Below are positions 644 to 15,499 of a stretch of DNA of 64,000 nucleotides, one piece after another. The first letter of the stretch is position 1. Every line of letters begins with the position of its first letter. This DNA comes from Pigmentiphaga sp. NML030171 (GTDB taxonomy: Bacteria > Pseudomonadota > Gammaproteobacteria > Burkholderiales > Burkholderiaceae_B): NCBI RefSeq assembly GCF_002188635.1, contig NZ_NINX01000033.1:186001-250000 (forward strand), in the 5' to 3' direction. The translations under genes and the position numbers were made by a program. Under the pieces are notes generated by a model. That model did no database searches. It was not told the origin of the DNA and was given only the letters and a program-made list of their open reading frames with translations.

Positions 644-1477
644 TCAGCCGCGGAACTTCAGGCCCTGGCGAATCTGCGCGGCCAGTTCGGCCAGCCGGGG
701 GCCGACGTGTTCCACCAGGCGCTGGCGATCGACCACATAGGAAGAACCGCCCAGGATCAGGGCCATGGGCGGGTTGCCGTCGTTCAGTTCCAGCGGCACG
801 CCCACGGCGTTGATTTCCTTTTCCCAGTCGCCCAGGGACAGCGTGAAACCACGCGCCTGGTAATCCTTCAGCCCTTCCTGGATGCCCTTCAGGATCCTGG
901 GCCACTGCGCGCCGTAACGGACCTTCTCGGCGGCGAACAGCTTGTCGCGCTCGCCGCGGTCCATGACCGCGATCAAAGCGCGGCCCATGGCGGTCGTCAC
1001 CAGGGGAGTGCGCGATCCCGATTGCACGCTCATGATCAGCGCGCCGGAACCGCGCGTATGTTCCAGGTACACCGCGTCGGCCTCGTCCCGGTAGCCCAGG
1101 GCGCAGCACAGGTTCAATTCTTCGGACACCCGCTCCATCAACGGCTTGGCGACCTGCCGGATGTAGGACCCGGCCATCGCCCAATACCCGAGCGCCAACG
1201 CCGACGTGCCCAGTTCGTAGCGGCCGGTCTGCGGCGAACAGGCCAGGTAGCCCAGGCGGGTCAGGGTATAGGTCAGGCGCGACACCGTGGGCTTGGTCAG
1301 GCCCGTGCGCTCGGCCAGCTCCTGGTTGCCCAGCGACGTGTCGCCCTGGGTGAAGGCCTTGAGGATGCTCAGCCCCCGGGCCAGCGCGGTCACGAATTGC
1401 CTGCCCGGATCCTCGTCGGCATCCGGCTCGGCAAATGGCACCGGGCTGATCGCCCTCGATTGGGAAGTTCCTCTCAT
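644..1477 (-). CDS. IclR-family transcriptional regulator of the hydroxypyridine cluster
   Basis: About 277 residues from the ATG at 1477 (MRGTSQSR). The frame stays open to 1591, but that extension would cover the operator. An N-terminal winged helix (roughly 25-85, with the recognition region LAERTGLTKPTVSRLTYTL) is followed by an IclR effector domain (about 100-275, with TTAMGRALIAVM). It is divergent from the Bug-nicE-nicF-nicX operon. The intergenic 1540-1560 palindrome recurs upstream of the monooxygenase at 7390-8655, so this protein is the obvious candidate to control both promoters and itself. The ligand is probably a pathway pyridine; whether it activates or represses is not visible. 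Confidence 0.9.
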   Translation of the reverse strand: MRGTSQSRAISPVPFAEPDADEDPGRQFVTALARGLSILKAFTQGDTSLGNQELAERTGLTKPTVSRLTYTLTRLGYLACSPQTGRYELGTSALALGYWAMAGSYIRQVAKPLMERVSEELNLCCALGYRDEADAVYLEHTRGSGALIMSVQSGSRTPLVTTAMGRALIAVMDRGERDKLFAAEKVRYGAQWPRILKGIQEGLKDYQARGFTLSLGDWEKEINAVGVPLELNDGNPPMALILGGSSYVVDRQRLVEHVGPRLAELAAQIRQGLKFRG

Positions 1478-1539
1478 CCGAGCTGCTCGCAAACTTCGTT
1501 GACACGCGCAAAAGTTGTTGGGTAGGATACCCCAAAAGT

Positions 1540-1560
1540 TTGCGAAACTTAGTTTCGCAT
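1540..1560. promoter_or_regulatory. IclR operator palindrome, copy 1
   Basis: Left half TTGCGAAACT, a central T and right half AGTTTCGCAT form a 21-bp inverted repeat with 9 of 10 bases paired. It sits between the divergent IclR gene (ATG at 1477) and the Bug gene (ATG at 1662). A matching copy lies at 8712-8732. Binding by the adjacent IclR protein is inferred. Confidence 0.8.
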
Positions 1561-1661
1561 TACGAACCACCAGGGAGACTAGGCCGCCCACGGCCTGGAA
1601 TGCATAACCGTCCCGCGGGCAGGGGAGCCGCGGGCTTCGTCACGACAATGAAGGGTCGAGC

Positions 1662-2636
1662 ATGAATGTCAAAGCTGTCTTGAAGGCCGCCATCGGGACC
1701 ATCGCGCTGGCAACCAGCCTGGGCGCCCACGCCGAATGGCCGGAACGCCCCATCACCCTGGTCGTGCCGTGGCCGCCGGGCGGCGGCGTGGATGCGGCCG
1801 CGCGCGTGGCCGGTCCCATGCTGGCCAAGCAGCTCGGCCAGCAGGTCGTCGTGGTCAACCGGCCCGGCGCCACCGGCAGCATAGGCGCGGAGTCCGTCGC
1901 CAAGGCCGAGCCCGACGGCTACACCTTGCTGTGGAGCTCCCTGACCAGCCATGCGATCTACGCCTCGCTGTACGAACGCTCCACGCCCTTCGACCTGGAG
2001 AAAAGCTTCACGCCGGTCTCGGTGTTCGGCAGCATTCCGTTCGTTATCGTGGTCAATCCCGGCGTCAAGGCGAACTCCGTCCAGGAACTCGTCGCGCTGG
2101 CCAAGGCCAGGCCGGGCGCGCTGACCTTCGCCTCCAGCGGCAATGGCTCGGTGCAGCATCTGGCCGGGGAAATGTTCAAGCGCGCGGCGGGCGTGGACCT
2201 GCTGCATGTCCCGTACAAGGGCATCGCGCCGTCGCTGCTCGACCTGGTGGGCGGCCAGGTGAACATGAGCATCGAAAGCCTGGCGGCCACGCTGCCCCAC
2301 ATCCGCAACCAGAAGCTGCGCGCGCTGGCCGTCGCCTCGCCCGAGCGCATCAGTCTCCTGCCCGACGTGCCGACCGCCGCCGAGGCCGGCCTCAAGGGCT
2401 ACGACGTCAGCGCCAAGCTGTTCGCGCTGGCGCCCGCCGGCACGCCCGCGTCCGTCATCGACAAGCTCGACCGCGCCTTCAAGCAGGTCTTCTCCGACAA
2501 GGCGGTGCAGGAACCGCTGCTGGCCCAGTCCATCATCACGCGCTACGCGTCGCCGGCTGAATCGGCCAAGCTCATCCACGATGAACTGGCCACCTTCAAG
2601 ACCGTCATCCGCGAAGCCAACATCCGCCCCGAGTGA
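1662..2636 (+). CDS. Bug/TctC-family periplasmic solute receptor
   Basis: 324 residues. A signal peptide ends near residue 24 (LGAHA then EWPERP). The receptor core shows the Bug motifs VVPWPPGGGVDAAAR, VVVNRPGATGSIG, AEPDGYTLLW and LLHVPYKG. Bug proteins bind carboxylated solutes in the periplasm and usually serve tripartite tricarboxylate (TctABC) carriers, but no TctA or TctB gene is near. It is first in the operon with nicE, nicF and nicX and lies behind the IclR operator, so a pyridine carboxylate is a reasonable ligand. An AAGGG stretch sits at 1650-1654 before the ATG. The stop overlaps the GTG of the flavin reductase remnant. Confidence 0.92.
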   Translation: MNVKAVLKAAIGTIALATSLGAHAEWPERPITLVVPWPPGGGVDAAARVAGPMLAKQLGQQVVVVNRPGATGSIGAESVAKAEPDGYTLLWSSLTSHAIYASLYERSTPFDLEKSFTPVSVFGSIPFVIVVNPGVKANSVQELVALAKARPGALTFASSGNGSVQHLAGEMFKRAAGVDLLHVPYKGIAPSLLDLVGGQVNMSIESLAATLPHIRNQKLRALAVASPERISLLPDVPTAAEAGLKGYDVSAKLFALAPAGTPASVIDKLDRAFKQVFSDKAVQEPLLAQSIITRYASPAESAKLIHDELATFKTVIREANIRPE

Positions 2637-2918
2637 CCGCCAAGATCCGCTACCTTCCCGAGCAGACCGATCCGGCGCACCTGTACAAGCTGGTGGCCGG
2701 CCTGGTCGTGCCCCGGCCCATCGCGCCGCAGCTACACCCTGGTCCTGGGCGAGGCCGTCGCCATCCACGTGGATCCCGACGTGGTCGACCCGGAAGGCCG
2801 CATCGACATGGCCGCATTGCGCGGCGTGGGGCGGCTGGCCGGCCGCGAATACTGCCGGCTGGGCGATGCCTTCCGCCTGGAACACGATTCGTTCAACCGC
2901 TACGGACGGCGGCCATGA
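2633..2918 (+). pseudogene. Flavin reductase family remnant with internal deletion and frame change
   Basis: A GTG at 2633 overlaps the Bug stop codon. It opens about 31 residues matching the start of flavin reductase-like proteins (LYKLVAGLVVPRPIA). The reading frame then changes near 2724-2730. From 2730 a different frame encodes about 62 residues resembling the C-terminus of the same family (YTLVLGEAVAIHVDPD to FRLEHDSFNRYG), ending at TGA 2916-2918. About 100 central residues, including the flavin-binding part, are missing, so the gene is dead. Such reductases accompany two-component monooxygenases, so an ancestral oxygenase partner may have been lost. Confidence 0.75.
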
Positions 2919-2953
2919 CCGCGTCCCAAGCCCACCATGGAAACTTCATCGAC

Positions 2954-3709
2954 ATGAGCAAGCCGGTGTACCGCATCGGACAGATCGTCCCCAGCTCCAA
3001 CACCACCATGGAGACCGAGGTGCCGGCCATGTTCCGCGCGCGCGAGACCGTGGCTCCGGAACGCTTCACCTTCCATTCCAGCCGGATGAGAATGATGAAG
3101 GTCAACAAGGAGGAACTGGCCGCCATGGACGCGCAGGCCGACCGCTGTGCGGCCGAGCTCAGCGACGCCGCCGTCGACGTCATCGGCTATGCCTGCCTGG
3201 TCGCCATCATGTCCATGGGCAAGGGCTACCATCGGGTTTCCGAAGAAAAGCTGACGCGCATCGCCGCGGCGGGCCATCCCGATACGCGGGTCGTGACCAG
3301 CGCCGGCGCGCTGCTCAACGGCATCCGGGCGATCGGTGCCCGCAAGGTGTCCGTCGTCACGCCCTACATGAAGCCGCTGACCCAGCTCGTGGTGGACTAC
3401 ATCGAATCCGAAGGCATCGAGGTGCTGGACGCGATCTCGCTGGAGATCGACGACAACCGCGCCGTCGGCAACCGCGACCCGCTGGCCCTGGTGGAAATCG
3501 CCGACAGGCTCGATGTCCGGGGCGCCGATGCCATCGTACTGTCGGCTTGCGTGCAGATGCCGTCGCTGGCCGCGATCCCGGAGGTCGAGGCTCGCCGCGG
3601 CCTGCCGGTCCTGTCGGCCGCGGTGGCCACGACCTACACCATGCTGCAGCGCCTGGACCTGCCCCGACATGTCCCGCGGGCCGGCGCGCTGCTCAACGGC
3701 TCCTATTAG
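2954..3709 (+). CDS. nicE: Maleate cis-trans isomerase (maleate to fumarate)
   Basis: 251 residues from MSKPVYRIGQIVPSSN, very close to nicotinate-pathway NicE. The Asp/Glu racemase-like fold carries its catalytic cysteine pair at Cys81 (GYACLVA) and Cys199 (LSACVQMP). It catalyses the last step, maleate to fumarate, in the cytoplasm. An alternative in-frame ATG at 2915 overlaps the stop of the flavin reductase remnant. I prefer 2954 because the homology begins there, although neither start has a strong ribosome binding site. nicF follows 10 bp later. Confidence 0.93.
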   Translation: MSKPVYRIGQIVPSSNTTMETEVPAMFRARETVAPERFTFHSSRMRMMKVNKEELAAMDAQADRCAAELSDAAVDVIGYACLVAIMSMGKGYHRVSEEKLTRIAAAGHPDTRVVTSAGALLNGIRAIGARKVSVVTPYMKPLTQLVVDYIESEGIEVLDAISLEIDDNRAVGNRDPLALVEIADRLDVRGADAIVLSACVQMPSLAAIPEVEARRGLPVLSAAVATTYTMLQRLDLPRHVPRAGALLNGSY

Positions 3710-3719
3710 GGCGCGAACG

Positions 3720-4355
3720 ATGAACAACAACGCCGCGGCGGTCTATCGCAAACAGGGCCTGGGCGCCCGCAGTGGCTGGGGCCGGAAGCCGGCCCTGGTC
3801 GTGGTCGATTTCGTCAATGGTTTCAACGATCCCGACGTGCTGGGCGGCGGCAATATCCCGGCCGCCATCGCGGCCACGGTCACGCTGCTGGCCGCCGCCC
3901 GGCGCGCGAAGCTGCCCGTGGCATTCACCCGCATCGTCTACGCCCCGGGCGCCGACAGCGTCTTCTGCATGAAGATACCGGCCCTGGCCTCGCTGCACGA
4001 GGAGAACCCGCAAAGCCACGTCGTCCCGCAGCTGGCAGTCCGGCCCGAGGATGCCGTCATCCGCAAGACTCAGCCGTCGGCCTTCTTCGGCACCGACCTG
4101 GCGGGATGGCTGATCCGGCGCGGCGTGGACACCGTGCTGGTGGCCGGCAGCACCACTAGCGGCTGCGTGCGCGCCACCGTGGTGGATGCGATGAGCTTCA
4201 ACTTCCGCCCCGTGGTGGTGGCCGACTGCGTCGGCGACCGCGCGCTGGCCCCGCACGACGCCAGTCTCTTCGACATCGGCCAGAAGTACGGCGAGGTGCA
4301 ATCCCTGGCCGAGGTGCTGGCCACGCTCGACACCCTGGAGGCCCCATGCCACTGA
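3720..4355 (+). CDS. nicF: Maleamate amidohydrolase (isochorismatase-like cysteine hydrolase)
   Basis: 211 residues. The isochorismatase-fold triad is visible as Asp30 (LVVVDFVNGF), Lys116 (IRKTQPSAF) and Cys149 (STTSGCVRAT). The family removes ammonia from maleamate to give maleate, the substrate of the upstream nicE. N-carbamoylsarcosine amidases share the fold, but the position between nicE and nicX makes maleamate the likely substrate. The 3' end overlaps the nicX start by 10 bp, which suggests translational coupling. Confidence 0.9.
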   Translation: MNNNAAAVYRKQGLGARSGWGRKPALVVVDFVNGFNDPDVLGGGNIPAAIAATVTLLAAARRAKLPVAFTRIVYAPGADSVFCMKIPALASLHEENPQSHVVPQLAVRPEDAVIRKTQPSAFFGTDLAGWLIRRGVDTVLVAGSTTSGCVRATVVDAMSFNFRPVVVADCVGDRALAPHDASLFDIGQKYGEVQSLAEVLATLDTLEAPCH

Positions 4356-5398
4356 GTCCTTCGCAACTGACCCGCTGCTGGACGGAAGTCCTGGAGCTCT
4401 CGAAACTGGCCCCCGGCGAGAACGTGCTGATCCTGACCTCGCAGAACTCCGACCCGCGCGTGGTCGATGCCGCCGCCCGGGCGGCCGCCGCGCTGCAGGC
4501 GCGGGTGGTCAAGCTGGACATCGCGCCCAACTGGGATACCTGCGAAGTGGGCGCCGATCCCACCGTGGTCAGCGGCGCCTCGCCCATCGACGACGACCCC
4601 ATGGCGCTGGCCGCGATGAAGGCGGCCGACCTGGTCATCGACACCGTATTCCTGCTGTTCACGCCGGGCCAGCGCGCGGTGCTGGAGTCCGGCACCCGCA
4701 TGCTGCTGGCCTACGAACCCCCGGAAGTCCTCGCGCGCGTGATGCCGTCGCCGGACGACCGGCGCCGCGTGCTGGCCGCGCGCGACGCCTATGCGCGGGG
4801 ACGCCGGATCACCGTCACCTCCGCGGCGGGCACGCGGCTGACGGCGTCCATCGGCGCCTATCCGATCACGGCGGAGTACGGCTACGTGGATAGCCCCGGC
4901 CGCTGGGACCACTGGCCCAGCGGCTTCGTCGCCCGCCTGCCCGACGACGGCACGGCCGAGGGCGTGGTCGTGCTGGCGCCCGGCGACATCATCCTGCCGT
5001 TCAAGAACTACGTGCAGTCACCCATCACCCTCGAGATCGAGCGCGGAACCATCGTGCGCATCTCGGGCGGGCTGGATGCCGAATTCCTGGACACCTACCT
5101 GCGCGGCTTCGACGATCCCGACGCCTACGCCGTATCGCACCTGGGCTGGGGCCTGCAGCCCAAGGCCCGCTGGACCTCGCTCGGGCTGTACGACAAGGCG
5201 GCCACCATCGGCATGGAAGCCCGGTCGTTCTACGGCAACTTCCTGTTTTCCACCGGCCCCGGCGGCAGCCGCCGCACCAAGGCGCACCTGGACATTCCCA
5301 TGCGCAAATGCTCGTTCCACGTCGATGGCCAACCCATGGTCGTGGACGGCGACGTCGTGGCCCCCGACCAGCGCGTCGACGGCGCGCGGCCGCAGTAG
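4346..5398 (+). CDS. nicX: 2,5-dihydroxypyridine 5,6-dioxygenase
   Basis: 350 residues, the same length as Pseudomonas putida NicX and clearly homologous throughout (EPPEVLAR, GRWDHWPSGF, GDIILPFKNY, HLGWGLQP, FYGNFLFSTGP). The iron ligands reported for NicX are conserved as His265, His314 and Asp316 (AHLDIP). The enzyme cleaves 2,5-dihydroxypyridine with O2 to N-formylmaleamate in the cytoplasm. It is the committed ring-opening step shared by nicotinate, picolinate and hydroxypicolinate routes. Its start overlaps nicF and an amidase gene follows 33 bp downstream. Confidence 0.95.
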   Translation: MPLSPSQLTRCWTEVLELSKLAPGENVLILTSQNSDPRVVDAAARAAAALQARVVKLDIAPNWDTCEVGADPTVVSGASPIDDDPMALAAMKAADLVIDTVFLLFTPGQRAVLESGTRMLLAYEPPEVLARVMPSPDDRRRVLAARDAYARGRRITVTSAAGTRLTASIGAYPITAEYGYVDSPGRWDHWPSGFVARLPDDGTAEGVVVLAPGDIILPFKNYVQSPITLEIERGTIVRISGGLDAEFLDTYLRGFDDPDAYAVSHLGWGLQPKARWTSLGLYDKAATIGMEARSFYGNFLFSTGPGGSRRTKAHLDIPMRKCSFHVDGQPMVVDGDVVAPDQRVDGARPQ

Positions 5399-5431
5399 CG
5401 TGCCATCGACCAACCCAGGATTTCCCACAGC

Positions 5432-6829
5432 ATGCCAGACCTGCCGTTCCTATCCCTAGCGCAACTTGCCCGCTCCTTCGAACGCAAGGAAATATCCCCG
5501 GTCGAGGCGCTCGAGGCGCAACTCGACCGCATCGCCGCGCTGAACGAACGCATCAACGCGTTCACGATCCTGGATGAAGACCGCGCCCGCGCGGCGGCAC
5601 GCGCCAGCGAGGCGCGATGGCTGCGCGGGGCGCCGCTCGGGCCGCTGGACGGAGCACCCTTCACCGCCAAGGACAACCTGATGGTGGCCGGGCTGCCCCA
5701 TCGGCGCGGCTCGCGCGCGATGCCCGCCGATCCCGTGCCGGACACCGCGCCCGCGGTACTGCGCTGCCAGGAAGGCGGCGCGGTGCTGCTGGGCCTGACC
5801 ACCATGCCGGAACTGGGCGCGGGCCCCGTCACCATCAGCCCACTCACCGGCGCCACCACCAACCCCTGGGACACGAGCAAGCAGGCCGGCGGCTCCTCGG
5901 GCGGCGGCGCGGCCTCGGTGTCGGCCGGCTTCTGCCCCTTCGCGCTGGGTTCCGACGCGGGCGGATCGCTGCGCATCCCCGCGGCCCTGACCGGCGTGGT
6001 TGGCTTCAAGGCCACTGGCGGCCTGGTACCCATGTATCCGCCCAACGTGGCCGGCGGCCTGTCCTGCGTCGGCCCGCTGGCCCGCAACGTGCGGGACACC
6101 GCCACGGTGCTGGACATCATCGCCCGGCCCGACGCGCGGGACGCCATGGCGCTGCCTTGGCGGCCCGACAGCCTGGGCGGAAATCTCGAACAGGGCGTGC
6201 GCGGCAAGCGCGTCGCCCTCAGCCTGACCCTGGGCTACGCCCCCCGGGTGGATCCCGAGATCGCCGGGGCCTTCCGGCAGGCGGGGCAACGCCTGGCGGC
6301 GCTCGGCGCCATCGTCGAGGAAGCCGATCCTGACATCGACAACCCTATCGACGACTACCTGGTCCTGCTGCAGGCGGGATACCGGTACGCGCTGCAGCAC
6401 ATGCCGGCGGAGCGGCGCGCGCTGCTGTCGCCCGTCATGGCGGGCATCCTGGAGGACGGCGCCGGCCTGGCGCTGGAGGACTACATGGGCGCGCAAGCGC
6501 GCTGCCAGGACCTGGCACGGCGTCTGCACGCCTTTCACCAGCGCTTCGACCTGCTGCTGACGCCCACCGTCGCGGCCCCCGCCTTCGACGCGAACCTGAG
6601 CTATCCGAAGGAATTCGAGGAATTTCCCAACCGGCGCGCCTGGACGCCCTACACCTCGCTGTTCAACCTGACGCAGCAGCCCGCCATCAGCATCCCGATG
6701 GGACTGACCGCCGCCGGCCTGCCCATGGGCCTGCACATCGCCGCACCGCGGGGCCACGATGCCCAGGTATTGCAAGCGGCGCACGCGCTGGAGGCGGTGT
6801 TGGGATTCGAGGCACGCCCGCCGATCTGA
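5432..6829 (+). CDS. Amidase-signature enzyme, candidate N-formylmaleamate deformylase
   Basis: 465 residues of the amidase-signature family. The Ser-cisSer-Lys triad can be read as Lys80 (PFTAKDN), Ser155/156 (GGSSGGG) and Ser179 (GSDAGGSLRIP). These enzymes hydrolyse small amides in the cytoplasm. It is the last gene of the nicE-nicF-nicX operon. The alpha/beta-hydrolase NicD, which normally turns N-formylmaleamate into maleamate and formate, is absent from the operon. I infer this amidase may fill that step, or may release a pyridine acid from an amide upstream. Confidence 0.82.
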   Translation: MPDLPFLSLAQLARSFERKEISPVEALEAQLDRIAALNERINAFTILDEDRARAAARASEARWLRGAPLGPLDGAPFTAKDNLMVAGLPHRRGSRAMPADPVPDTAPAVLRCQEGGAVLLGLTTMPELGAGPVTISPLTGATTNPWDTSKQAGGSSGGGAASVSAGFCPFALGSDAGGSLRIPAALTGVVGFKATGGLVPMYPPNVAGGLSCVGPLARNVRDTATVLDIIARPDARDAMALPWRPDSLGGNLEQGVRGKRVALSLTLGYAPRVDPEIAGAFRQAGQRLAALGAIVEEADPDIDNPIDDYLVLLQAGYRYALQHMPAERRALLSPVMAGILEDGAGLALEDYMGAQARCQDLARRLHAFHQRFDLLLTPTVAAPAFDANLSYPKEFEEFPNRRAWTPYTSLFNLTQQPAISIPMGLTAAGLPMGLHIAAPRGHDAQVLQAAHALEAVLGFEARPPI

Positions 6830-6865
6830 TCTCCGCCGGACTGGCCAGTGCGCACGCCATCGAAT

Positions 6866-6898
6866 AAAAAGGTGCCTGGATGTGAAGGACACCTTTTT
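6866..6898. terminator. Bidirectional hairpin with A/T flanks, overlapping the next gene's SD
   Basis: AAAAAGGTG at 6866-6874 pairs perfectly with CACCTTTTT at 6890-6898 around a 15-nt loop. It lies 36 bp after the amidase stop and fits a rho-independent terminator. The loop contains GAAGGA (6884-6889), the ribosome binding site of the gene starting at 6900, so the structure could also affect that gene's translation. Confidence 0.6.
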
Positions 6899-6899
6899 C

Positions 6900-7427
6900 A
6901 TGAAGCTTGCGAGCCTGGGGCCGCGCATCTGCATCGTCGGGCCCTCCAACAGCGGGAAGTCCACGCTGGCCGAGGCGATCGCCCGCAAATGCGCCCTGGA
7001 GCCGGTCCACCTCGACCGGCTCTACCACCTGCCCCACACTGACTGGGAACCCCGCCCCACGCAGGAATTCACCGCCCTGCACGACGCGGCCATCGCAGGC
7101 GAGCGCTGGGTCATGGACGGCAACTATTCCAGCTGCATGCCGCAGCGCCTGCGGCGCGCCACCGGCGTGATCCTGCTGGACATCTCCACGCCGCTGAGCC
7201 TGCTGCGCTACCTGCGCCGGACCTGGTTCGAGCGCGACCGTCGCGGCGCCCTGGACGGCGGCCGCGACAGCGTCAAGTGGGCGATGATCCACCATATCGC
7301 CGTGGTCACGCCGCGCAACCGCCGACGCTATGTCGAGATGATCGAAGGGCTCGACCTGCCCACGGTGATGCTGCCGTCGGCGGCGGCGATCAGGCGATGC
7401 TATCGGCGGTGGGAGCTGGCACGCTAG
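6900..7427 (+). CDS. Small P-loop nucleotide-binding protein (adenylate kinase/FlaR-like)
   Basis: 175 residues. A Walker A motif lies near the N-terminus (GPSNSGKST, about residues 14-22). It is followed by the pattern of small kinase-like 'topology modulation' proteins: HLDRLYHLP, WVMDGNYSS, and LRYLRRTWFERDRRG resembling a lid. Such proteins bind ATP, but their substrate is generally unknown. It sits between the nic operon and the monooxygenase and shows no obvious link to pyridine metabolism. Its 3' end overlaps the convergent monooxygenase gene by 38 bp. Confidence 0.8.
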   Translation: MKLASLGPRICIVGPSNSGKSTLAEAIARKCALEPVHLDRLYHLPHTDWEPRPTQEFTALHDAAIAGERWVMDGNYSSCMPQRLRRATGVILLDISTPLSLLRYLRRTWFERDRRGALDGGRDSVKWAMIHHIAVVTPRNRRRYVEMIEGLDLPTVMLPSAAAIRRCYRRWELAR

Positions 7428-8655
7428 CGGACACGGTGCCCAGCTTCGCGGCCACGGCCTCCCGACAATCGTAGCTGTACAGCCAGTCGACCCGGCGCCA
7501 TTTCTCCTGGCTGTTGGTCAGAGCGGCCCAGCGGAACTTCAGGTTGCGCATGAACTTCTTCAGCGGATCGGTCTGGTGGAACATGCGACCCGCCTCGCGC
7601 GAGCCCAGTTGCACGCGCGCCGTGCGCGCGGTGCGCAGCTCCTCGTAGGCCTTGAGCGCGGCGGCCGGATCGTGCGGCAGCCCGGCCAGGCACAGCGCCA
7701 GCACAAGGCCGTCCTCGATACTTTGCGAACCGCCCTGCGACAGGAAAGGCACCATGGGATGGGCCGCGTCGCCCAGCAGCGTCACCCGGCCCCGGGTCCA
7801 CACCGGCCAGGGATCGCGGTCGTACAGCGCCCACTTGAACACCTCGTCGGTCGCCTCTATCAGGCCACGCACGATGGGGTGCCAGCCTTCGAACTCCTTC
7901 AGCACCTCGGCCTTGTCGCCGCGCGCCGACCACGATTCGAGCCGCCATTCCCCCGCCGGCACGATACCTATCCAATTGATGCGCCGGCCCGCCGACACGT
8001 AGTAGTTCACGAAGTGCCGGTGCGGCCCCCACCAGGCGTTGACGTTCTTCTCGATGCCCAGGTGGCGGGCGCGGTCCGCATCCGCCATGCCCCGCCAGGC
8101 AAGCAGCCCGGTGAAGCGCGGATCCTGCCCTTCCAGCAACTGGCCGCGCACGACCGAGTGCACGCCGTCGGCCCCGACCAGCACGTCGCCTTCCACGGTC
8201 TCGCCCGACTCCAGCACCACGCGCACACCCGCCGCGTCCTGCGCATACGTCTTGACGCGCTGCGCCAGCCGCACGTTCTCGCGCCCGTACGCATCGATCA
8301 AGGCATTGTGCAGATCGGCGCGGTGCACATGGTAGTAGGGCGCGCCGTAGCGCTGCGCGCACTCCGGCCCCAGCGGGAAATCGCGGATGGTGCGGCCGCT
8401 GGCCCAGTCGCGCGACCGGGTGGCAAGCGGCGCCACCGCCACGGCTTCCAGCGCCGGGGCGATGCCCAGGTCGTGCAGGACCTTGACGGCATTGGGGCCG
8501 AGTTGGATGCCCGCGCCGACCTCCTTCAGTACCGCTGTCTGTTCCAGCACCTCGACGTGGCGAAAGCCCAGTTTCCTGAGAGCCAGGGCCGTCGTCAGCC
8601 CTCCTATGCCCGCGCCGGCGATCAGGATGCGCGGTTGGTCGTATGAGGCTTTCAT
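7390..8655 (-). CDS. FAD-dependent aromatic monooxygenase (NicC/PicB/HpaM type)
   Basis: 421 residues from the ATG at 8655. The Rossmann FAD motif GAGIGG is at residues 14-19, followed by VGADGVHS and GDAAHPMVPFLSQGG, typical of the p-hydroxybenzoate/salicylate hydroxylase group. Group members hydroxylate, sometimes decarboxylating, hydroxy-aromatic acids with NAD(P)H and O2. The palindrome at 8712-8732 matches the one in front of the nicX operon, so it belongs to the same regulon. The product is expected to be 2,5-dihydroxypyridine or its carboxylate. Whether the substrate is 6-hydroxynicotinate, 6-hydroxypicolinate or 5-hydroxypicolinate cannot be decided. No pyridine-acid dehydrogenase (NicAB or PicA) gene is in the window. 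Confidence 0.85.
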   Translation of the reverse strand: MKASYDQPRILIAGAGIGGLTTALALRKLGFRHVEVLEQTAVLKEVGAGIQLGPNAVKVLHDLGIAPALEAVAVAPLATRSRDWASGRTIRDFPLGPECAQRYGAPYYHVHRADLHNALIDAYGRENVRLAQRVKTYAQDAAGVRVVLESGETVEGDVLVGADGVHSVVRGQLLEGQDPRFTGLLAWRGMADADRARHLGIEKNVNAWWGPHRHFVNYYVSAGRRINWIGIVPAGEWRLESWSARGDKAEVLKEFEGWHPIVRGLIEATDEVFKWALYDRDPWPVWTRGRVTLLGDAAHPMVPFLSQGGSQSIEDGLVLALCLAGLPHDPAAALKAYEELRTARTARVQLGSREAGRMFHQTDPLKKFMRNLKFRWAALTNSQEKWRRVDWLYSYDCREAVAAKLGTVSASVPAPTADSIA

Positions 8656-8711
8656 GCGTGCTGTTTCTCGCTGTAGGACATGGGGTGATGACCGGATACG
8701 ATATGTTCGCA

Positions 8712-8732
8712 TTGCGAAACTAAGTTTCGCAA
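8712..8732. promoter_or_regulatory. IclR operator palindrome, copy 2
   Basis: Half-sites TTGCGAAACT and AGTTTCGCAA around a single A form a perfect 21-bp palindrome 57 bp upstream of the monooxygenase ATG. It differs from the 1540-1560 copy only at the centre and the last base. It is taken as the second operator of the IclR protein at 644-1477. Confidence 0.8.
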
Positions 8733-8868
8733 ATAGTGTACGAGCGTAGCCAAGCGGCGTCAACGCGGTAAGAGCCCGATACGGAACGCGGACGAAATGA
8801 AAGCGGAGAGAAGAAAACGATGGCACGCGCCGCCGAACCGCGCAGGCAGTCCGGCGGCGCGGGGAGAC

Positions 8869-10353
8869 TCAGCCCTGGGGCTTGGGCGTGAAGAGGGCGG
8901 GGCGGCGGGCGCCGCCGTTGCGGGCTTCGCCGGCGGGGCGCGCCGCGCCCTGGGAAGCCGGCGCGGCATGGCGCGGCTGGGCTGGCCGGGCCTGGCTGGG
9001 TTGGGACGCGGCCGGCCGGCTGGCCGGGCCTTGCCCGCGCGCGGCGCCCTGTCCACGGCCACTCCCGGACGGCTGGCGGCCGCCTGAACCATGTGCTGAC
9101 TGTCCACGACCGCCGTCACGCGGCGCGCCCTGGCGTCCCTGGCCTTGGCGCGGCGCATGCGAGCGCGGCGGGCGTTCGGCGCGCTCGTCGCGATCGGGCG
9201 CCGACACGGTGAAGGCGGGCAGGGGCTCTCGATCGATCTTGCGCTTGATCAGCTTCTCGATGTCGGCCAGCAGCTTGCCTTCCTCGCCGTCGACCAGGGA
9301 CACCGCCGCGCCCGTCGCACCCGCGCGGCCGGTGCGGCCGATGCGGTGCACGTAGTCCTCGGGCACGTTGGGCAGTTCGAAATTCACCACCTGCGGCAGT
9401 TGGTCGATGTCCAGGCCGCGCGCCGCGATGTCGGTCGCCACCAGCACTTCCACCGAGCCGTCCTTGAATCCGGCCAGCGCCTTGGTGCGGGCGGACTGGC
9501 TCTTGTTGCCATGGATGGCGGCGGCGGGAACGCCGTCCTTGACCAGTTTCTCGGCCAGGCGATTGGCGCCGTGCTTGGTGCGCGTGAACACCAGCACCTG
9601 CTTCCAGCCGTTGCTACGCACCAGGTGGCTGAGCAGGTCGCGCTTCTGTTCCTTCTGCACCAGCAGCACCGACTGACGCACCAGCTCGGACGCGGTGTTG
9701 CGCCGCGCGACCGAGACCTCGCCCGGATCGTTCAGCACGCCCTTGGCGAGCGCGCGGATGTCATCGGAGAAGGTGGCCGAGAACAACAGGTTCTGGCGCT
9801 TGGCCGGCAGCAGCGCGAGGATCTTGCGGATGTCGCGGATGAAGCCCATGTCCAGCATGCGGTCGGCTTCGTCCAGCACCAGGATCTCGACGCCGGACAG
9901 GTCCAGCGTCTTCTGGCCCACGTGGTCCAGCAGGCGGCCGGGGGTGGCGACCAGGATGTCCACCGGCTTCTTCAGCGCGCTGATCTGCGGATTGATGTTC
10001 ACGCCGCCGAACATCACCATGGATTTAAGCGGCAGGTACTTGCCGTAGATCTGGACGGATTCCTCGACCTGCGCGGTCAGTTCGCGCGTGGGCGTCAGGA
10101 TCAGGCAGCGCGGCCGGCCCGGGCGCATCTGCGCGGGCCGGTTCGACGACAGCAGGTGCAGCAGGGGCAGGGTGAAGCCCGCGGTCTTGCCGGTGCCGGT
10201 CTGCGCGGCGGCCAGCAGGTCGCCGCCCTTGAGCACCTGGGGAATGGCCTGGGCCTGGATGGGGGTGGGATGGGTATAGCCGGCATCGGCGATGGCGCGC
10301 ATCAGCGGCTCGGCCAGGCCGAGGTCGGCAAACGAAATATCGGAAGTAATCAA
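8869..10353 (-). CDS. rhlE: DEAD-box ATP-dependent RNA helicase, RhlE type
   Basis: 494 residues if the TTG at 10353 is the start. That start gives a protein beginning (M)[16 protein letters not shown], with GGAG five bases upstream. The open frame extends to 10497 without similarity. The domains are a Q motif (FADLGL...[10 protein letters not shown]), AQTGTGKT, a DEAD box ([10 protein letters not shown]), a SAT motif (FSATFSDD), and a second RecA domain with [10 protein letters not shown]. The C-terminal ~110 residues are rich in Arg, Gly, Pro and Ala, as in RhlE proteins that bind structured RNA. It acts in ribosome or RNA remodelling. It is a housekeeping gene with no functional link to its neighbours. 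Confidence 0.93.
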
Positions 10354-10727
10354 GACAACTCCAGCGACGGCCCGTCGCTCAAGCTGAGTGACTCCAATCG
10401 AGGCTGACGTACGTATTAACTGGGGATAGGCCGGCCGGAAAACGGCTGTCCGGGTGGAGCCCGGAAGACATGGCGCGCGGCGCCTGGCCGGATGCACGCC
10501 TGGATTGGAGCCAGGCGCGAGCCGCGATTGTACCCGGTAATGGCGACCTAGTGTTTACCCTAGTGACGATTTCACCAAGAGGGCGTATATTTACCCTTGT
10601 TTCACTATTAAATCCGCGTTTTAAATATAAAACGCGTGGCAGTGACAGCGAACACACCGCGGCGGGCCCTCCCGGACCCGCCTCCACCCGCTCTCGCGGC
10701 GCCTAGCCGCCCATGCAGGAGTACACC
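10354..10727. promoter_or_regulatory. Intergenic divergent promoter region with palindrome and repeated boxes
   Basis: This 374-bp gap between rhlE and the cupin gene has no coding signal. An AT-rich patch at 10550-10636 holds a perfect 9-bp inverted repeat: CGCGTTTTA at 10615-10623 and TAAAACGCG at 10628-10636 around AATA. It also holds two direct repeats TTTACCCT at about 10554 and 10590. These are candidate operator sites for the cupin gene. The IclR encoded at 12499-13299 is the nearest candidate binder. Confidence 0.5.
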
Positions 10728-11264
10728 ATGACGGATATGTCCGAACAACAGCAAGTCGCCCGCAGCTGGGACCGCCCCGAAGGCGCTGACTTCGAGACCT
10801 GGATGAACTCGCGCGTCGCGCGGTTCTCGACCCGTAAGTACGACTGGGATGCCCTGAAGTTCCAGGCCGACTTCGATCCCAAGTACCGCCGTGCGCAAAT
10901 GCGCTATGTCGGCACGGGCGGCACCGGCGTCGCCGCCGATTCGAACACCGTGCCTTCCGAGCACTTCACGTTCTCGACCATGGTGATCCCGGCCGGCCAC
11001 GAAGGCCCCCCGCACCTGCACACCGACGTCGAGGAAATCTTCTTCGTCATCCGTGGCAAGCTCAAGGTGATCCTGGAGAAGGACGGCGAGCGCTTCGAAA
11101 CCATCCTGACCGACCGCGACCTGGTGTCGGTTCCCCCGGGCGTGTACCGCGAGGAAATCAACATCGGCGACGAAGACGCCCTGATGTGTGTGATGCTGGG
11201 CGCCAAGAAGCCCATCACCCCGACCTACCCGCCCGAGCACCCGCTGGCGAAGATCAAACGGTAA
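10728..11264 (+). CDS. Cupin-domain protein
   Basis: 178 residues from the ATG at 10728, chosen because GGAG lies seven bases upstream; an ATG at 10713 is also in frame. A single cupin barrel shows the metal-binding signature PPHLHTDVEEIFFVIRGK (His-x-His, then Glu) and a second motif around SVPPGVYREE, where the usual His is not obvious. It could be a metal-dependent dioxygenase, isomerase or binding protein. It precedes the alpha/beta hydrolase, IclR and aspartate dehydrogenase genes but is separated from them by a large palindromic repeat. Catalytic role unknown. Confidence 0.85.
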   Translation: MTDMSEQQQVARSWDRPEGADFETWMNSRVARFSTRKYDWDALKFQADFDPKYRRAQMRYVGTGGTGVAADSNTVPSEHFTFSTMVIPAGHEGPPHLHTDVEEIFFVIRGKLKVILEKDGERFETILTDRDLVSVPPGVYREEINIGDEDALMCVMLGAKKPITPTYPPEHPLAKIKR

Positions 11265-11268
11265 TAGG

Positions 11269-11582
11269 CCCCCCTACGCGCTTACGCGCGCCCCCCAAGG
11301 GGGCGATGCGGGTGGACCGGCGGAGCCGGATCCACCGCATCCTGGGTCTAGTGCCGCTCTCTTGGGTTGTGGCACCGTTGCTATCGCTGGCTGCCAGCGG
11401 TAGCAACGATGTGGCGTACCAAGAAACCGGTACTAGACCCAGGGCGCCGCGGATCCGGCTTTGCCGGTCCGCCAGCGCCGCCCCTCGAGGGGAGCGGCCA
11501 TAGGCCGCGTGGGGTGGGCTTTCCCTCCGGTCCGCCAGCGCCGCCCCCTTGAGGGGGCCCGCGTAAGCGGGTACGGGGTGGA
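11269..11582. repeat. Composite palindromic intergenic repeat, copy A
   Basis: A left arm (about 11269-11341) contains GGACCGG/CCGGATCC and CCCCCC/GGGGG stems. A right arm (about 11443-11582) repeats the same motifs in inverse orientation, twice. Between them, 11342-11442 is itself an imperfect palindrome: two 50-base arms match at 39 positions around one central base. It contains no open reading frame of note. The same arms recur at 14135-14466 and 63628-63705. Confidence 0.75.
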
Positions 11583-11602
11583 TTTTTTCTGGATTTAGGA
11601 CG

Positions 11603-12496
11603 ATGCAGACCGATACGTTGGCGCCGGAACCGTCGCCGGAAACGCTGGAGTTGCTCAATAGCCGTTTCGCCGAAAAATCGGTGCAAACGGCCGGGGGCGT
11701 GCAGTGTTATCGCGAGGCGGGCACGCCGGGCGCGGACGGCATGGCCATCGTGCTGTTGCATGGCATCGGCTCGGGCGCGGGCTCGTGGCTGCATGCGGCG
11801 CTGAAGTTGGCCGAACGCGCGCGCGTGGTCGCCTGGGACGCTCCGGGCTACGGCAATTCGGCGCGGCTGGCGCCGGCCTCGCCGGGCGCGGAAGACTATG
11901 CCGGTCGGCTGGACCAGATGCTCGATGCGCTGGGCATCGATCGCTGCGTGCTGGTCGGCCATTCGCTCGGCACGCTCATGGCCACCGCCTATGCGCATGA
12001 CCTGGGCAAGCAGCGGGTCGCGCGCCTGGTGCTGCTGAGCCCCACGCGCGGCTACGGCAATCCCGCGCTGGCCGAGCGCCAGGAAGCGGTGCGCGCCGAG
12101 CGGCTGCGCACGCTGGAACAGGTCGGCATCGCCGGCATGGCGCGCACGCGCCCGGCCAAGATGCTGTCGTCCGAACCCAGCGCCGAGGCCCTGGCCTGGG
12201 TCCGCTGGAACATGGAGCGCCTGGATACCGCCGGCTACCGCCAGGCGATCGAGATGCTGTGCAATGCCGACATGGCCGCCTACGCGCCGGCCGCGATGCC
12301 GGTCGAGGTCCATTCCGGCGACCAGGACACCGTCACGATCCCGGCCAACTGCCGCGCCATCGCCGAGATGTTCGGCGCGCCCTACGGCTCCATCGCCGTG
12401 GCCGGCCACGCCTGCCACATCGAGCGGCCGGAGGCCGTCGCGGCCATACTGGAAGGCGCGCACGCCGCGGCCATCGCCGACGCCACGCCCCGCTGA
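11603..12496 (+). CDS. Alpha/beta-hydrolase
   Basis: 297 residues. The hydrolase fold shows an oxyanion region LLHGIGSG, nucleophile elbow GHSLG, a C-terminal Asp region (HSGDQDTV) and a His (AGHACHIE). It is cytoplasmic, with no signal peptide. The size and layout fit ring-cleavage-product or enol-lactone hydrolases. The stop is followed after 2 bp by the IclR gene, so it is probably part of one operon with IclR and aspartate dehydrogenase. A role as N-formylmaleamate deformylase for the cluster 5 kb upstream is possible but not specifically supported. Confidence 0.85.
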   Translation: MQTDTLAPEPSPETLELLNSRFAEKSVQTAGGVQCYREAGTPGADGMAIVLLHGIGSGAGSWLHAALKLAERARVVAWDAPGYGNSARLAPASPGAEDYAGRLDQMLDALGIDRCVLVGHSLGTLMATAYAHDLGKQRVARLVLLSPTRGYGNPALAERQEAVRAERLRTLEQVGIAGMARTRPAKMLSSEPSAEALAWVRWNMERLDTAGYRQAIEMLCNADMAAYAPAAMPVEVHSGDQDTVTIPANCRAIAEMFGAPYGSIAVAGHACHIERPEAVAAILEGAHAAAIADATPR

Positions 12497-12498
12497 CC

Positions 12499-13299
12499 AT
12501 GAACGACGCCGCCATCAGCGAAGACATTCCCGAGCGCTACATCGTCCCGGGCCTGGAGCGAGGCCTGCGGCTGCTCAGCCACTTCAGCCGCCAGAACCGG
12601 ACACTGTCGGCGCCCGAGTTCGCTCGAAAGATGGGGCTTCCACGCTCCACCGTGTTCCGGCTGCTGACCACGCTGGAAGCGCTGGGCTTCATCGAGCGCA
12701 CCGAGGGCGGACGCAACTACCGCCTGGGCATGGCGGTGCTGAGCCTGGGCTTCGAATACCTGGCCTCGCTGGAGCTGACCGAACTGGGATCGCCGCTGCT
12801 GCAGCGCCTGCGTGACGAGATCGGCTATTCGTGCAACCTGGTGGTGCGCGACGGCCGTTCCATCGTCTACGTGGCGAAGGTCTCGGCGCCCACGCTGTTC
12901 CCCAGCGCGGTCAACCTGGGCACGCGCCTGCCCGCGCACGCCACCGTGCTCGGCCGCGTGATGCTGACCGACCTGGACCATCGGGAAATGAGCGAGCTCT
13001 ATCCCGACGAGGAACTGGAAGTCTATTCGCCCAGCACCCCGTCCACCCTGACCGCGCTGCAGGGCCTGCTGGCGCAGGACCGGGCCAATGGCTACGCCAT
13101 GGGCGCCGGCTTCTACGAACCCAGCATCACCAGCATCGCCACGCCGGTGCGCGACCACACCGGCCGCGTGGTCGCGGCGCTGGGCGCCGCCCTGCCGTCG
13201 TCGCGCGTCGAGCAAGCGCGCGTATCCGAGCTGATCGGCCGCGTGCGCGGCACCGCCGACGAGCTGTCGCGCCTGCTCAACTATTCACCGTCCCATTGA
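12499..13299 (+). CDS. IclR-family transcriptional regulator
   Basis: 266 residues. The N-terminal winged helix (about 17-75) has the recognition region FARKMGLPRSTVFRLLTTLE. The effector domain (about 90-260) includes ATVLGRVMLTDL and SITSIATPVRD, as in regulators of aromatic acid catabolism. It starts 2 bp after the hydrolase stop and is followed by aspartate dehydrogenase, so it lies inside the operon it may control. The palindrome at 10615-10636 in front of the cupin gene is a possible target. Confidence 0.9.
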   Translation: MNDAAISEDIPERYIVPGLERGLRLLSHFSRQNRTLSAPEFARKMGLPRSTVFRLLTTLEALGFIERTEGGRNYRLGMAVLSLGFEYLASLELTELGSPLLQRLRDEIGYSCNLVVRDGRSIVYVAKVSAPTLFPSAVNLGTRLPAHATVLGRVMLTDLDHREMSELYPDEELEVYSPSTPSTLTALQGLLAQDRANGYAMGAGFYEPSITSIATPVRDHTGRVVAALGAALPSSRVEQARVSELIGRVRGTADELSRLLNYSPSH

Positions 13300-13327
13300 C
13301 CGGGCAACGCATCGCCCAGGAGCCAAC

Positions 13328-14134
13328 ATGCTACGAATCACGATGATAGGGTCGGGGGCCATCGGCCTCTCCGTCCTGTCGCTGCTGAAGAACGATTCCG
13401 ACGTGTCGATCGACAGCGTCATCGTCGCCCCCGACACGCTGGACCAGGCCCGCGAGCAGGTCGCCGCGATCGCTCCCAAGGCCCAGGTCGTGACCGGCCT
13501 GGCCGAGGTCGCCCAGCGCCCCGACCTGCTGGTCGAATGCGCCGGCCACGGCGCGCTGCGTGCCCACGTGCTGCCCGCGCTCGAACAAGGCATCCCCTGC
13601 GTGGTGGTGTCCATCGGCGCGCTGTCGGATGTCGAACTGGCGCGCCAGCTGGAAGATGCCGCCAAGCGCGGCAAGACCCAGGTGCAGCTGCTGTCGGGCG
13701 CCATCGGCGGCATCGACGCGCTGGCCGCGGCCAAGATCGGTGGCCTGGACTCGGTGGTGTACACCGGCCGCAAGCCGGCCCTGGCCTGGAAGGACACGCC
13801 GGCCGACGGCCAGTTCAAGCTCGAGGCGCTGACCGAGCCCACGGTGATCTTCGAAGGCCCCGCCGGCGAAGCCGCCCGGCTCTTCCCGAAGAACGCCAAC
13901 GTCGCCGCCACGCTGTCGCTGGCCGGCCTCGGCCTGGACCGCACCCAGGTGCGCCTGATTGCCGACCCCTCCAGCAAGGAAAACGTGCACCACGTGGAAG
14001 CCAGCGGCGCCTTCGGCAGCTTCGAGATCACCATGCGGGGCAAGCCGCTCGCGGCCAACCCCAAGACTTCCGCCCTGACTGTCTATAGCGTCGTGCGCGC
14101 CATCGGCAATCAGGCGCATGCAGTGGCCATATAA
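13328..14134 (+). CDS. nadX: L-aspartate dehydrogenase
   Basis: 268 residues, the usual size. A Rossmann motif GSGAIG opens the protein. ECAGHGALRAHVLPAL and the C-terminal NVHHVEASGAFGSFEI, with the presumed catalytic His, match NAD(P)-dependent aspartate dehydrogenases of betaproteobacteria. It interconverts aspartate with iminoaspartate or oxaloacetate and ammonia. In a degradative operon it may remove the amino group of aspartate or a related amino acid rather than supply NAD synthesis; no nadA or nadC gene is nearby. A palindromic repeat follows directly. Confidence 0.88.
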   Translation: MLRITMIGSGAIGLSVLSLLKNDSDVSIDSVIVAPDTLDQAREQVAAIAPKAQVVTGLAEVAQRPDLLVECAGHGALRAHVLPALEQGIPCVVVSIGALSDVELARQLEDAAKRGKTQVQLLSGAIGGIDALAAAKIGGLDSVVYTGRKPALAWKDTPADGQFKLEALTEPTVIFEGPAGEAARLFPKNANVAATLSLAGLGLDRTQVRLIADPSSKENVHHVEASGAFGSFEITMRGKPLAANPKTSALTVYSVVRAIGNQAHAVAI

Positions 14135-14466
14135 CCCCCCTACGCGCTGACGCGCGCCCCCCAGGGGGCGATGCGGGTGGACCGGCAAAGCCGGATCCAC
14201 CGCATCCTGGGGTAACAATAGGCAGACGGAGAACAGTGTTTTTCTTGTCGAGGCCTATATGCGAGAGGGTCGGAGGAGCAGATCCATCTCGCCCTGTCTG
14301 AAGCTCATTACTCGGCGTAAGACTGAGCTCGGTCAGGTTATTCAAGGCGGGAAAAACGCCATTTTCCGCCAGCCTGGTTTTACCCCTGGGCGCCGCGGAT
14401 CCGGCTTTGCCGGTCCGCCAGCGCCGCCCCCTTGAGGGGGCGCCCGTCAGGGCGTAGGGGGTGGGC
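14135..14466. repeat. Composite palindromic intergenic repeat, copy B
   Basis: The left arm (14135-14213) closely matches the left arm of copy A. The right arm (14383-14466) is its inverse and matches the right arm of copy A. The 170-bp interior differs from copy A but also begins and ends with complementary bases (GGGGTAA and TTACCCC). It fills the gap between nadX and the next Bug gene and has no convincing coding frame. Confidence 0.75.
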
Positions 14467-14494
14467 ACTTATTGTCATGGAGTAGTAGTTCATT

Positions 14495-15499
14495 ATGTTT
14501 AAGACTAGCACTCGCCTGGCTGCCGGCGCGCTGTTCGCGGCGGTCGCCACCGCTTCTTTCGCCCAGGCTCCCGCGGCCGACGACGCCGCCGCCAAGGCCT
14601 CGCTCAAGCACGGCCAGTTCCGCATCATCGCCCCGTTCCCGCCGGGCGGCCCCGTCGACGTGCTGGCCCGCCTGCTGGGCACCGGCCTGCAGAATGAATA
14701 CGGCCAGAGCGCCGTCGTGGACAACCGTCCCGGCGCCAACGGCAACATCGGCATCGACGCCGTCAAGCGCGCCGCCGGCGACGGCCACACGCTGCTGGTC
14801 GTGCCGGCCGGCAACATGACCATCAACCCGACGCTGATGGCCAACCTGCCTTACAACGTGGACAAGGACTTCACCGCGGTTGCGATGATGGCCAAGGCGC
14901 CCAACGTGGTCGCCGTGTTCCCCTCGGTTCCCGCCAAGAACATCCAGGAACTGATCGCGCTGACCAAGTCCAAGCCCGGCACCATGGCCTACGGCTCGCC
15001 CGGCGTGGGCAGCGGCCTGCACCTGGCCGGCGAACTGTTCAAGGAAGCCACCGGCGCCGACCTGCTGCACGTTCCGTACAAGGGCACGACCCAGGCGCTG
15101 AATGACGCGCTGGGCGGCCAGATCCAGGTCATCTTCGGCGCGCTGCCGACCCTGATGCCCCAGATCAAGTCCGGCAAGCTGCGCGCGCTGGCCCTGACCG
15201 GCTCCGAGCGTTCGCCCATCATGCCCGAGATCCCCACCCTGGCCGAGACCGGCGTGAAGGGCGTGAACGTGGTGTCGTGGTATGGCCTGTACGTGCCCAG
15301 CTCGACGCCGGCCAACATCTCGGGCCAGCTCGCGCGCGACGTGACCAAGATCCTGAACGAACCCGCCACGCTGGAGACGTTGAAGGCCCAGGGCCTGGAG
15401 CTGTCGCCGCTGCGCCTGGAAGCCTTCCGCAAGTTCCAGGCCGACGAGACCAAGACCTGGGAAAAGGTGATCAAGTCGCAAGGCATCACCGCCGGCTGA
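14495..15499 (+). CDS. Bug/TctC-family periplasmic solute receptor
   Basis: 334 residues with an N-terminal signal peptide (ALFAAVATASFAQA). Bug motifs are present: IIAPFPPGGPVDVLAR, VVDNRPGANGNIG and LLHVPYKG. A distinctive insert-like segment AADDAAAKASLKHG separates the signal from the first strand. It is the last gene of the aspartate dehydrogenase cluster, isolated by a composite repeat upstream and a strong terminator downstream (15543-15572). Ligand unknown; an amino or carboxylic acid handled by this cluster is the natural guess. No TctAB genes are adjacent. Confidence 0.92.
   Translation: MFKTSTRLAAGALFAAVATASFAQAPAADDAAAKASLKHGQFRIIAPFPPGGPVDVLARLLGTGLQNEYGQSAVVDNRPGANGNIGIDAVKRAAGDGHTLLVVPAGNMTINPTLMANLPYNVDKDFTAVAMMAKAPNVVAVFPSVPAKNIQELIALTKSKPGTMAYGSPGVGSGLHLAGELFKEATGADLLHVPYKGTTQALNDALGGQIQVIFGALPTLMPQIKSGKLRALALTGSERSPIMPEIPTLAETGVKGVNVVSWYGLYVPSSTPANISGQLARDVTKILNEPATLETLKAQGLELSPLRLEAFRKFQADETKTWEKVIKSQGITAG

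Follow-up and report, generated by a model that had tools for sequence, protein, structure and literature searches.

A candidate IclR regulon with three-box operators at a hydroxypyridine gene cluster of Pigmentiphaga

The window analysed in this study, a stretch of 64,000 nucleotides from Pigmentiphaga sp. NML030171, carries between positions 644 and 8,732 a gene for an IclR-family regulator, a divergent operon with homologues of nicE, nicF and nicX, and a gene for a flavin adenine dinucleotide (FAD) monooxygenase. We consider it probable, at roughly 0.7, that this IclR represses the two promoters of the hydroxypyridine gene set through three-box operators, from which an aromatic inducer would release it. 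That the gene set forms a regulon with this IclR is very likely from the sequence, because of the site, its three-box form, its conservation, its position and its exclusive pairing with this regulator, each of them, like the gene families, obtained by computation.

The mechanism that we infer, from binding and repression to the inducer, the substrate of each enzyme and the role of the amidase, would run as follows. IclR would bind a three-box operator on and just past the predicted transcription start of each promoter and would repress both the operon that runs from Bug through (flavin reductase), nicE, nicF and nicX to the amidase gene and the FAD monooxygenase gene convergent with it, until an aromatic compound, probably a pyridine carboxylate or a hydroxypyridine, acted as inducer and released it. 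Uptake of the acid by the gene set would come first, the FAD monooxygenase would hydroxylate the ring to a 2,5-dihydroxypyridine, and NicX would cleave the latter to an N-formylmaleamate; the formyl group would be removed, probably by the amidase, and maleamate would pass via maleate to fumarate in the final steps.

Operator sites

Two near-identical palindromes had been described in an initial annotation of the window, one in front of the operon and one in front of the FAD monooxygenase gene, with iclR divergent from the operon. Arrangement, coordinates and arm pairing all stand, palindrome 1 at 1540-1560 (TTGCGAAACTTAGTTTCGCAT) being paired at 9/10 and palindrome 2 at 8712-8732 (TTGCGAAACTAAGTTTCGCAA) at 10/10 positions. 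Searched with up to 3 mismatches, the 21-bp site occurs in the whole genome (5,862,145 bases) solely at these two places, and the reversed control gives 0 matches; with equal base frequencies, the matches expected by chance number ∼0.17 in a genome when 3 mismatches are allowed and 0.0003 when 1 is allowed. The looser form TGCGAAAYNNNRTTTCGCA (up to 2 mismatches) adds two places in the genome, with 2 mismatches each. The half-site taken alone is uninformative, its 25 matches in the window (up to 2 mismatches) comparing with 23.7 expected. Scattering of the palindrome over many unrelated loci, the outcome named beforehand as telling against a regulon, was looked for in the genome and across the family and did not appear: 6 of 268 family genomes, all of one genus, have the site (up to 2 mismatches), at exactly two places each that lie 6.1-7.2 kb apart. 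The reversed control gives one match in each of 7/268.

The palindromes are present as described, yet the operator is better understood as a three-box element, whose third box had been overlooked. This box adjoins both palindromes in identical orientation to the catabolic gene, and the element read along that gene is TTGCGAAACTTAGTTTCGCA[T/A]TGCGAAC; the copies at the two promoters of the six genomes depart from it by single differences at most. All 12 places (6 genomes × 2 sites) show a single orientation relative to the downstream catabolic gene, and the third box TGCGAAC is intact at 11 of them. Between Pigmentiphaga humi and the other five genomes the 28-bp element is identical at 27-28/28 positions at both sites, and the 60 bp downstream of it agree at 14-20/60. 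Upstream of site 2, an ungapped comparison gives 10-15/45 agreeing positions, a figure that understates conservation because -10 and operator are 6 bp apart in P. humi but 2 bp apart in the other genomes.

According to the accessible part of Suvorova and Gelfand (2021, PMC8222616), three-box IclR sites comprise three half-sites of alternating direction, combined as GKTYCRYW3-4RYGRAMC and TGRAACAN1-2TGTTYCA pairs; they are found in 32/181 orthologous groups and were known before from PcaU, PobR and HmgR. Compared by eye, GTTTCGC-ATT/AAT-GCGAAC in the present element fits the first pattern save the variable last base, and CGAAACT-N-AGTTTCG fits the second at 5/7 positions per arm. The boxes alternate in direction, marking the element as a putative three-box IclR operator. 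As in the operators of that survey, two overlapping palindromes lie at aromatic catabolism genes and the centre of site 2 (∼-67) falls between -20 and -80, where such sites are most frequent; unlike them, the half-site here is TTGCGAAAC and the regulated genes are those of the 2,5-dihydroxypyridine pathway. The words 'nicotin', 'pyridine' and 'maleate' are absent from the main text of PMC8222616.

Promoters and operator placement

Both predicted promoters point toward the catabolic gene, with the element directly after the -10 hexamer: the gap from promoter end to element is 11 bp at site 1 and 2 or 6 bp at site 2, and the site centres lie ∼112 bp before the Bug start and ∼67 bp before the monooxygenase gene start, respectively. 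Hexamers and spacing of the Bug-operon promoter are kept in 6/6 genomes, as is the pattern TTGAC[AG]-17-TA[AC]ACT of the monooxygenase promoter. This placement suggests repression by IclR, which is its simplest reading because a protein bound at the element would cover the transcription start. Two regulators with the three-box form, PcaU and PobR, act as activators; the position therefore hints at repression without proving it, and this precedent weighs against a repressor. The same regulon could thus have IclR as a PcaU/PobR-like activator, recruiting polymerase when bound to the three-box element, as the known three-box operators of PcaU, PobR and HmgR (PMC8222616) and the best NCBIfam model of the protein, PcaR/PcaU/PobR (TIGR02431), would have it. 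We judge this distinctly unlikely: the model score of 130.9 bits is far below the cut-off of 284.75, so that the protein is not assigned to that subfamily, and in all six genomes the element of either promoter follows well-formed -35/-10 hexamers, a position from which a bound protein would obstruct rather than assist.

Very improbable, in our view, is that the palindromes work at the RNA level, forming 5' hairpins by which both messages are stabilised or attenuated, with IclR uninvolved. Both predicted transcripts have at their start a near-perfect palindrome of 21 bases that could indeed fold, but the conserved third box lies outside the hairpin, no terminator-like site occurs in 1440-1700, the one in 8640-8880 is off the palindrome (8640-8658, +), and both the co-occurrence of sites and IclR in 6/6 genomes and the related palindromes at distant iclR genes (below) point to the protein.

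The regulator and its tie to the site

Both IclR domains are recognised in the regulator, the helix-turn-helix (PF09339, 61.9 bits, cut-off 22) and the effector domain (PF01614, 73.4 bits, cut-off 24). IclR at at least 85% identity is present in 6 of 11 Pigmentiphaga genomes, the same 6 that hold the two sites; the other 5 have neither, and the best IclR relative listed outside the genus is 51% identical. Site-bearing relatives include Pigmentiphaga kullae K24 (locus L015), Burkholderiales bacterium 67-32 (L016), Alcaligenaceae bacterium SAGV5 (L017) and P. humi dnA1 (L018), the genus label resting on the two so-named, P. kullae and P. humi. Among distant IclR relatives (33-51% identity; 76 loci under 60%, one dropped for too little upstream DNA), 23/75 show a near match to the palindrome (up to 6/20 mismatches) at their own iclR gene, in a stretch that begins 300 bp before the gene and takes in its first 60 bp, compared with 0/74 downstream and 10/750 shuffled stretches, where the relatives share ancestry and are not independent and the shuffling by two-base blocks is an approximation. 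Genes adjoining five of the IclR relatives, read from translations, gave no hint of the inducer. Across 31 regions, not all of which contain nicX, the IclR-like matches other than those of the six clusters themselves are just L130 (29%), L135 (24%) and a second IclR (28-29%) that neighbours the cluster in the window and in L164.

The catabolic genes follow the same distribution: NicX at at least 84% identity and the amidase (E up to 1e-110) are confined to those 6 of 268 family genomes. Among 399 genomes drawn from the order, NicX (E up to 1e-125) and amidase (E up to 1e-140) were found in 1, the own genome, which is no proof of absence because the other five known carriers were evidently outside the draw. 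All NicX matches in 185 plasmid records are below 60% identity.

The second IclR gene of the window (29% identical to the first) is part of a set at 10713-15499 (+) that follows a helicase gene, lacks the palindrome and further includes a cupin, an alpha/beta hydrolase, an aspartate-dehydrogenase-like protein and a Bug receptor, the names other than IclR and Bug being read from translations.

The gene cluster

The NicX, maleate isomerase and isochorismatase identities proposed earlier are borne out by PDB and Pfam matches (Table 1), and the genes then named are present; the amidase and the broken flavin-reductase gene had been left undescribed. The flavin-reductase-like frame is whole (212 aa) in L015, L016 and L018, the L015 protein matching PF01613. 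In the window a remnant is left, with the deletion junction at 2722-2726, and in L017 the gene is reduced by a different deletion. Loss across the operon is reciprocal, of the flavin reductase in the window and L017 and of nicE/nicF in L015 and L016; the P. humi cluster (L018) has all three genes. The P-loop protein, which has no match in L018, is probably outside the pathway.

Table 1. Predicted features of the iclR locus and the hydroxypyridine gene cluster, in window positions
Feature	Position	Strand	Basis
IclR-family regulator, 277 aa	644..1477	-	PF01614, PF09339 above cut-off
Predicted sigma70 promoter TTGACA-18-TAGGAT, Bug operon	1499..1528	+	sole promoter-like site in 1440-1700
Three-box operator 1	1540..1567	+	palindrome 1540-1560 + third box 1561-1567
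Bug/TctC periplasmic receptor	1662..2636	+	PF03401, E 1.3e-65
Flavin-reductase-like gene remnant	2633..2918	+	two pieces match in window; ∼353 bp missing inside, frame lost
Maleate cis-trans isomerase, NicE type	2915..3709	+	alternative start 2954; PDB 4fq7 E 4.8e-97
Isochorismatase-fold amidohydrolase, maleamate amidase candidate, NicF type	3720..4355	+	PF00857; PDB 3ot4 'putative isochorismatase' E 2.3e-64
2,5-dihydroxypyridine 5,6-dioxygenase, NicX type	4346..5398	+	PDB 7cn3 E 5.8e-112
Amidase-signature enzyme, directly 3' of nicX	5432..6829	+	PF01425; PRK06169 509.7 bits, cut-off 506
P-loop protein, 'DNA topology modulation' kind	6900..7427	+	PRK08118 85.6 bits, below cut-off 215
Single-component FAD monooxygenase	7390..8655	-	PF01494
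Three-box operator 2	8705..8732	-	palindrome 8712-8732 + third box 8705-8711
Predicted sigma70 promoter TTGACG-17-TACACT, monooxygenase gene	8735..8763	-	sole promoter-like site in 8640-8880

The FAD monooxygenase

NicC was considered as the identity of the monooxygenase and rejected on residues, tree and identity. The protein is 36% identical to NicC of Pseudomonas putida, and 34-38% to the enzymes of L127, L132 and L136; the remaining relatives compared, with nicX nearby or not, are 39-47% identical to it. At the positions of H47, C202 and H302 in NicC, which we take to be active-site residues and which are conserved in two 63% identical relatives, the window type has Q, V and F in 6/6 proteins; H, C and H are found in L132 and L136 (those NicC relatives of the family, 63%) and in PDB 5eow. 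PDB 8uiq, whose chain is called NicC, has Q at 47, perhaps as an engineered variant, so that H47 by itself is not decisive. In the tree, which carries a long-branch warning, NicC, L132 and L136 share a starred branch that excludes the window clade, and L127 also goes with NicC. Residues and tree placement therefore make NicC function unlikely. The monooxygenase is, judged from its sequence, a lineage of its own, and 6-hydroxynicotinate by NicC-type chemistry would be an unlikely substrate route.

Such a lineage could also mean that IclR binds the operator while the monooxygenase acts on another aromatic acid, sharing the regulator without feeding NicX. Equally similar enzymes (44-47%) occur without nicX nearby in L149-L155, and the best NCBIfam model is 3-hydroxybenzoate 6-monooxygenase, below cut-off. 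We nonetheless find this rather unlikely, given that the gene is convergent with the amidase gene, within ∼600 bp, in 6/6 genomes and shares the operator, and that nicX clusters of the family repeatedly carry a monooxygenase of the same superfamily.

NicX and the adjoining amidase

Key residues of P. putida NicX were taken from the accessible part of PMC7910607 and surveyed, by pairwise alignment, in 48 rows of top matches, some showing the same gene twice. The iron ligands H265, S302, H318 and D320 and the substrate contacts E177 and H189 are kept in 11/11 rows of the window clade. Phe at position 105, seen in the window protein instead of His, was tried as a lost catalytic residue and dropped: it is present in 44/48 rows and the H105F variant of the P. 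putida enzyme keeps activity (PMC7910607), so that position 105 is not diagnostic. The position of E308 is a gap in 11/48 rows, representing 7 different genes, and Glu in the other 37. All 7 of these genes have an amidase-signature gene alongside; the seventh, from L127 of P. humi, is a 73% paralogue whose cluster also encodes a molybdenum hydroxylase and a different FAD monooxygenase.

The amidase copies in the family (E up to 1e-110) adjoin nicX in 7/7 cases, in two different cluster types, and in the 64-kb window NicD finds no counterpart but a stretch outside the cluster, 11657-12043, that matches in part at 31-33%. With moderate confidence, the amidase may be taken to replace NicD. Amidase-signature enzymes commonly hydrolyse aromatic amides, and NicD-type alpha/beta hydrolases are encoded in L125 and L126 of the same genome; the amidase might thus serve for entry, acting on a pyridine carboxamide, and N-formylmaleamate be handled by the NicD of another cluster. 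We regard this as a possibility of some substance, albeit a doubtful one, since nicD in L125 and L126 is located beside nicX, as the amidase is in all its copies, and since the window offers no more than the partial match.

Related clusters show further variation. In P. humi, L127 (7848-18796) has the paralogous amidase-nicX pair next to genes for the molybdenum hydroxylase and the FAD monooxygenase, which is 46% identical to NicC; three Bug-like receptor genes lie between them. A NicX-like protein in L135 (9646-10671) has Y, Y, R and Q at 76, 104, 105 and 177 with the iron ligands kept, and perhaps acts on another substrate. In L128, L129 and L131 (∼7000-13600) nicX is followed by a different alpha/beta hydrolase of 340 aa, which may carry out the deformylase step in a third form.

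Relation to known systems

COG3181 is presumably the TctC/Bug receptor group. It appears among the aromatic-metabolism genes in IclR regulons in the accessible part of PMC8222616, so the pairing of IclR with a Bug receptor, which the initial annotation had considered unusual, is not so in itself. An IclR gene near nic genes has a precedent as well: MarR, TetR and LysR genes adjoin three other nicX genes, and a putative IclR gene near nicE/nicF homologues was already reported (see below). In P. putida, MarR-type NicR represses nicC and nicX, and NicS represses nicAB (PMC10269826, as far as accessible). Like nic of P. putida KT2440 (nicAB, nicCDEFTP, nicXR), the window cluster has NicX, NicE and NicF types and a flavin monooxygenase; unlike it, it has an IclR rather than the MarR or TetR regulator of a nic cluster, together with a Bug receptor and a monooxygenase that lacks the NicC residues; the window shows no clear NicD and no molybdenum-hydroxylase match.

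Two further clusters of the same genome share the lower pathway (NicX 51% and 48%, NicE 65% and 63%): L125, with Rieske oxygenase, amidohydrolase, nicE, NicD-type hydrolase, nicX, nicF and MarR, and L126, with FAD monooxygenase, nicE, NicD-type hydrolase, nicX, nicF and TetR. They differ from the window cluster in the NicD-type hydrolase, the regulator and the upper pathway. With L125 and L126 beside MarR and TetR genes, the IclR cluster is therefore set apart as a separate route. In P. humi, L131 has a LysR gene adjoining Bug-monooxygenase-nicF-nicX, and L128 and L129 have the same order (read from translations). The closest precedent in print among the accessible texts is the nicotinate cluster of Bacillus niacini DSM 2923 (PMC4256190), where putative IclR and TetR genes are near nicE/nicF homologues, as the IclR gene is here; most genes of that cluster are described as departing radically from the clusters known, and the action of the regulators on it was called unclear by the authors. 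Our literature search, with most subscription papers beyond reach, found no IclR pairing with the 2,5-dihydroxypyridine pathway or nicX.

Discussion

Repression of a complete hydroxypyridine gene set by IclR has to be weighed against several findings besides the activator precedents. Control of both promoters by IclR is itself predicted. A scan of 1440-1700 found no promoter for iclR, and 52/75 distant IclR relatives show no near match to the palindrome. The third box of site 1 in the window carries a G-to-A difference (TTACGAAC) and may therefore be dispensable. The gene set is not always complete, since the clusters of L015 (∼1.4 kb missing) and L016 lack nicE and nicF, and L164 (G196) has no match to either; the genomes of these three loci have one other nicE copy each (67-68%). 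Lastly, NicX activity of this cluster is a candidate function resting on homology, and the window clade of NicX is without E308, the residue whose E308A exchange drops about half of the activity in the P. putida enzyme (PMC7910607, accessible part).

Taken further, the cluster might represent a separate route to 2,5-dihydroxypyridine, so far in part of Pigmentiphaga only, in which a three-box IclR operon and a new flavin hydroxylase lineage would feed NicX from a pyridine other than 6-hydroxynicotinate, and an amidase would stand in place of NicD together with a NicX lacking the E308 loop. We advance this combined proposal tentatively, at somewhat less than even odds.

The operator type is already known; its pairing with a pyridine-degradation pathway is not found in the literature searched. 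The predicted regulon is small and bounded, with one regulator, two operators and about seven genes, and the form of the operator fits the general model of IclR sites, so that alternative dimerisation on a three-box site becomes testable on two natural promoters. Pyridine acids arise from agrochemicals, and the substrate of the cluster is therefore of practical interest. The interest of the system is chiefly biochemical, in the candidate substrate of the monooxygenase and the candidate role of the amidase: a nicX cluster distinct from the MarR- and TetR-associated ones in the same genome would offer a candidate for a second way of carrying out the N-formylmaleamate step.

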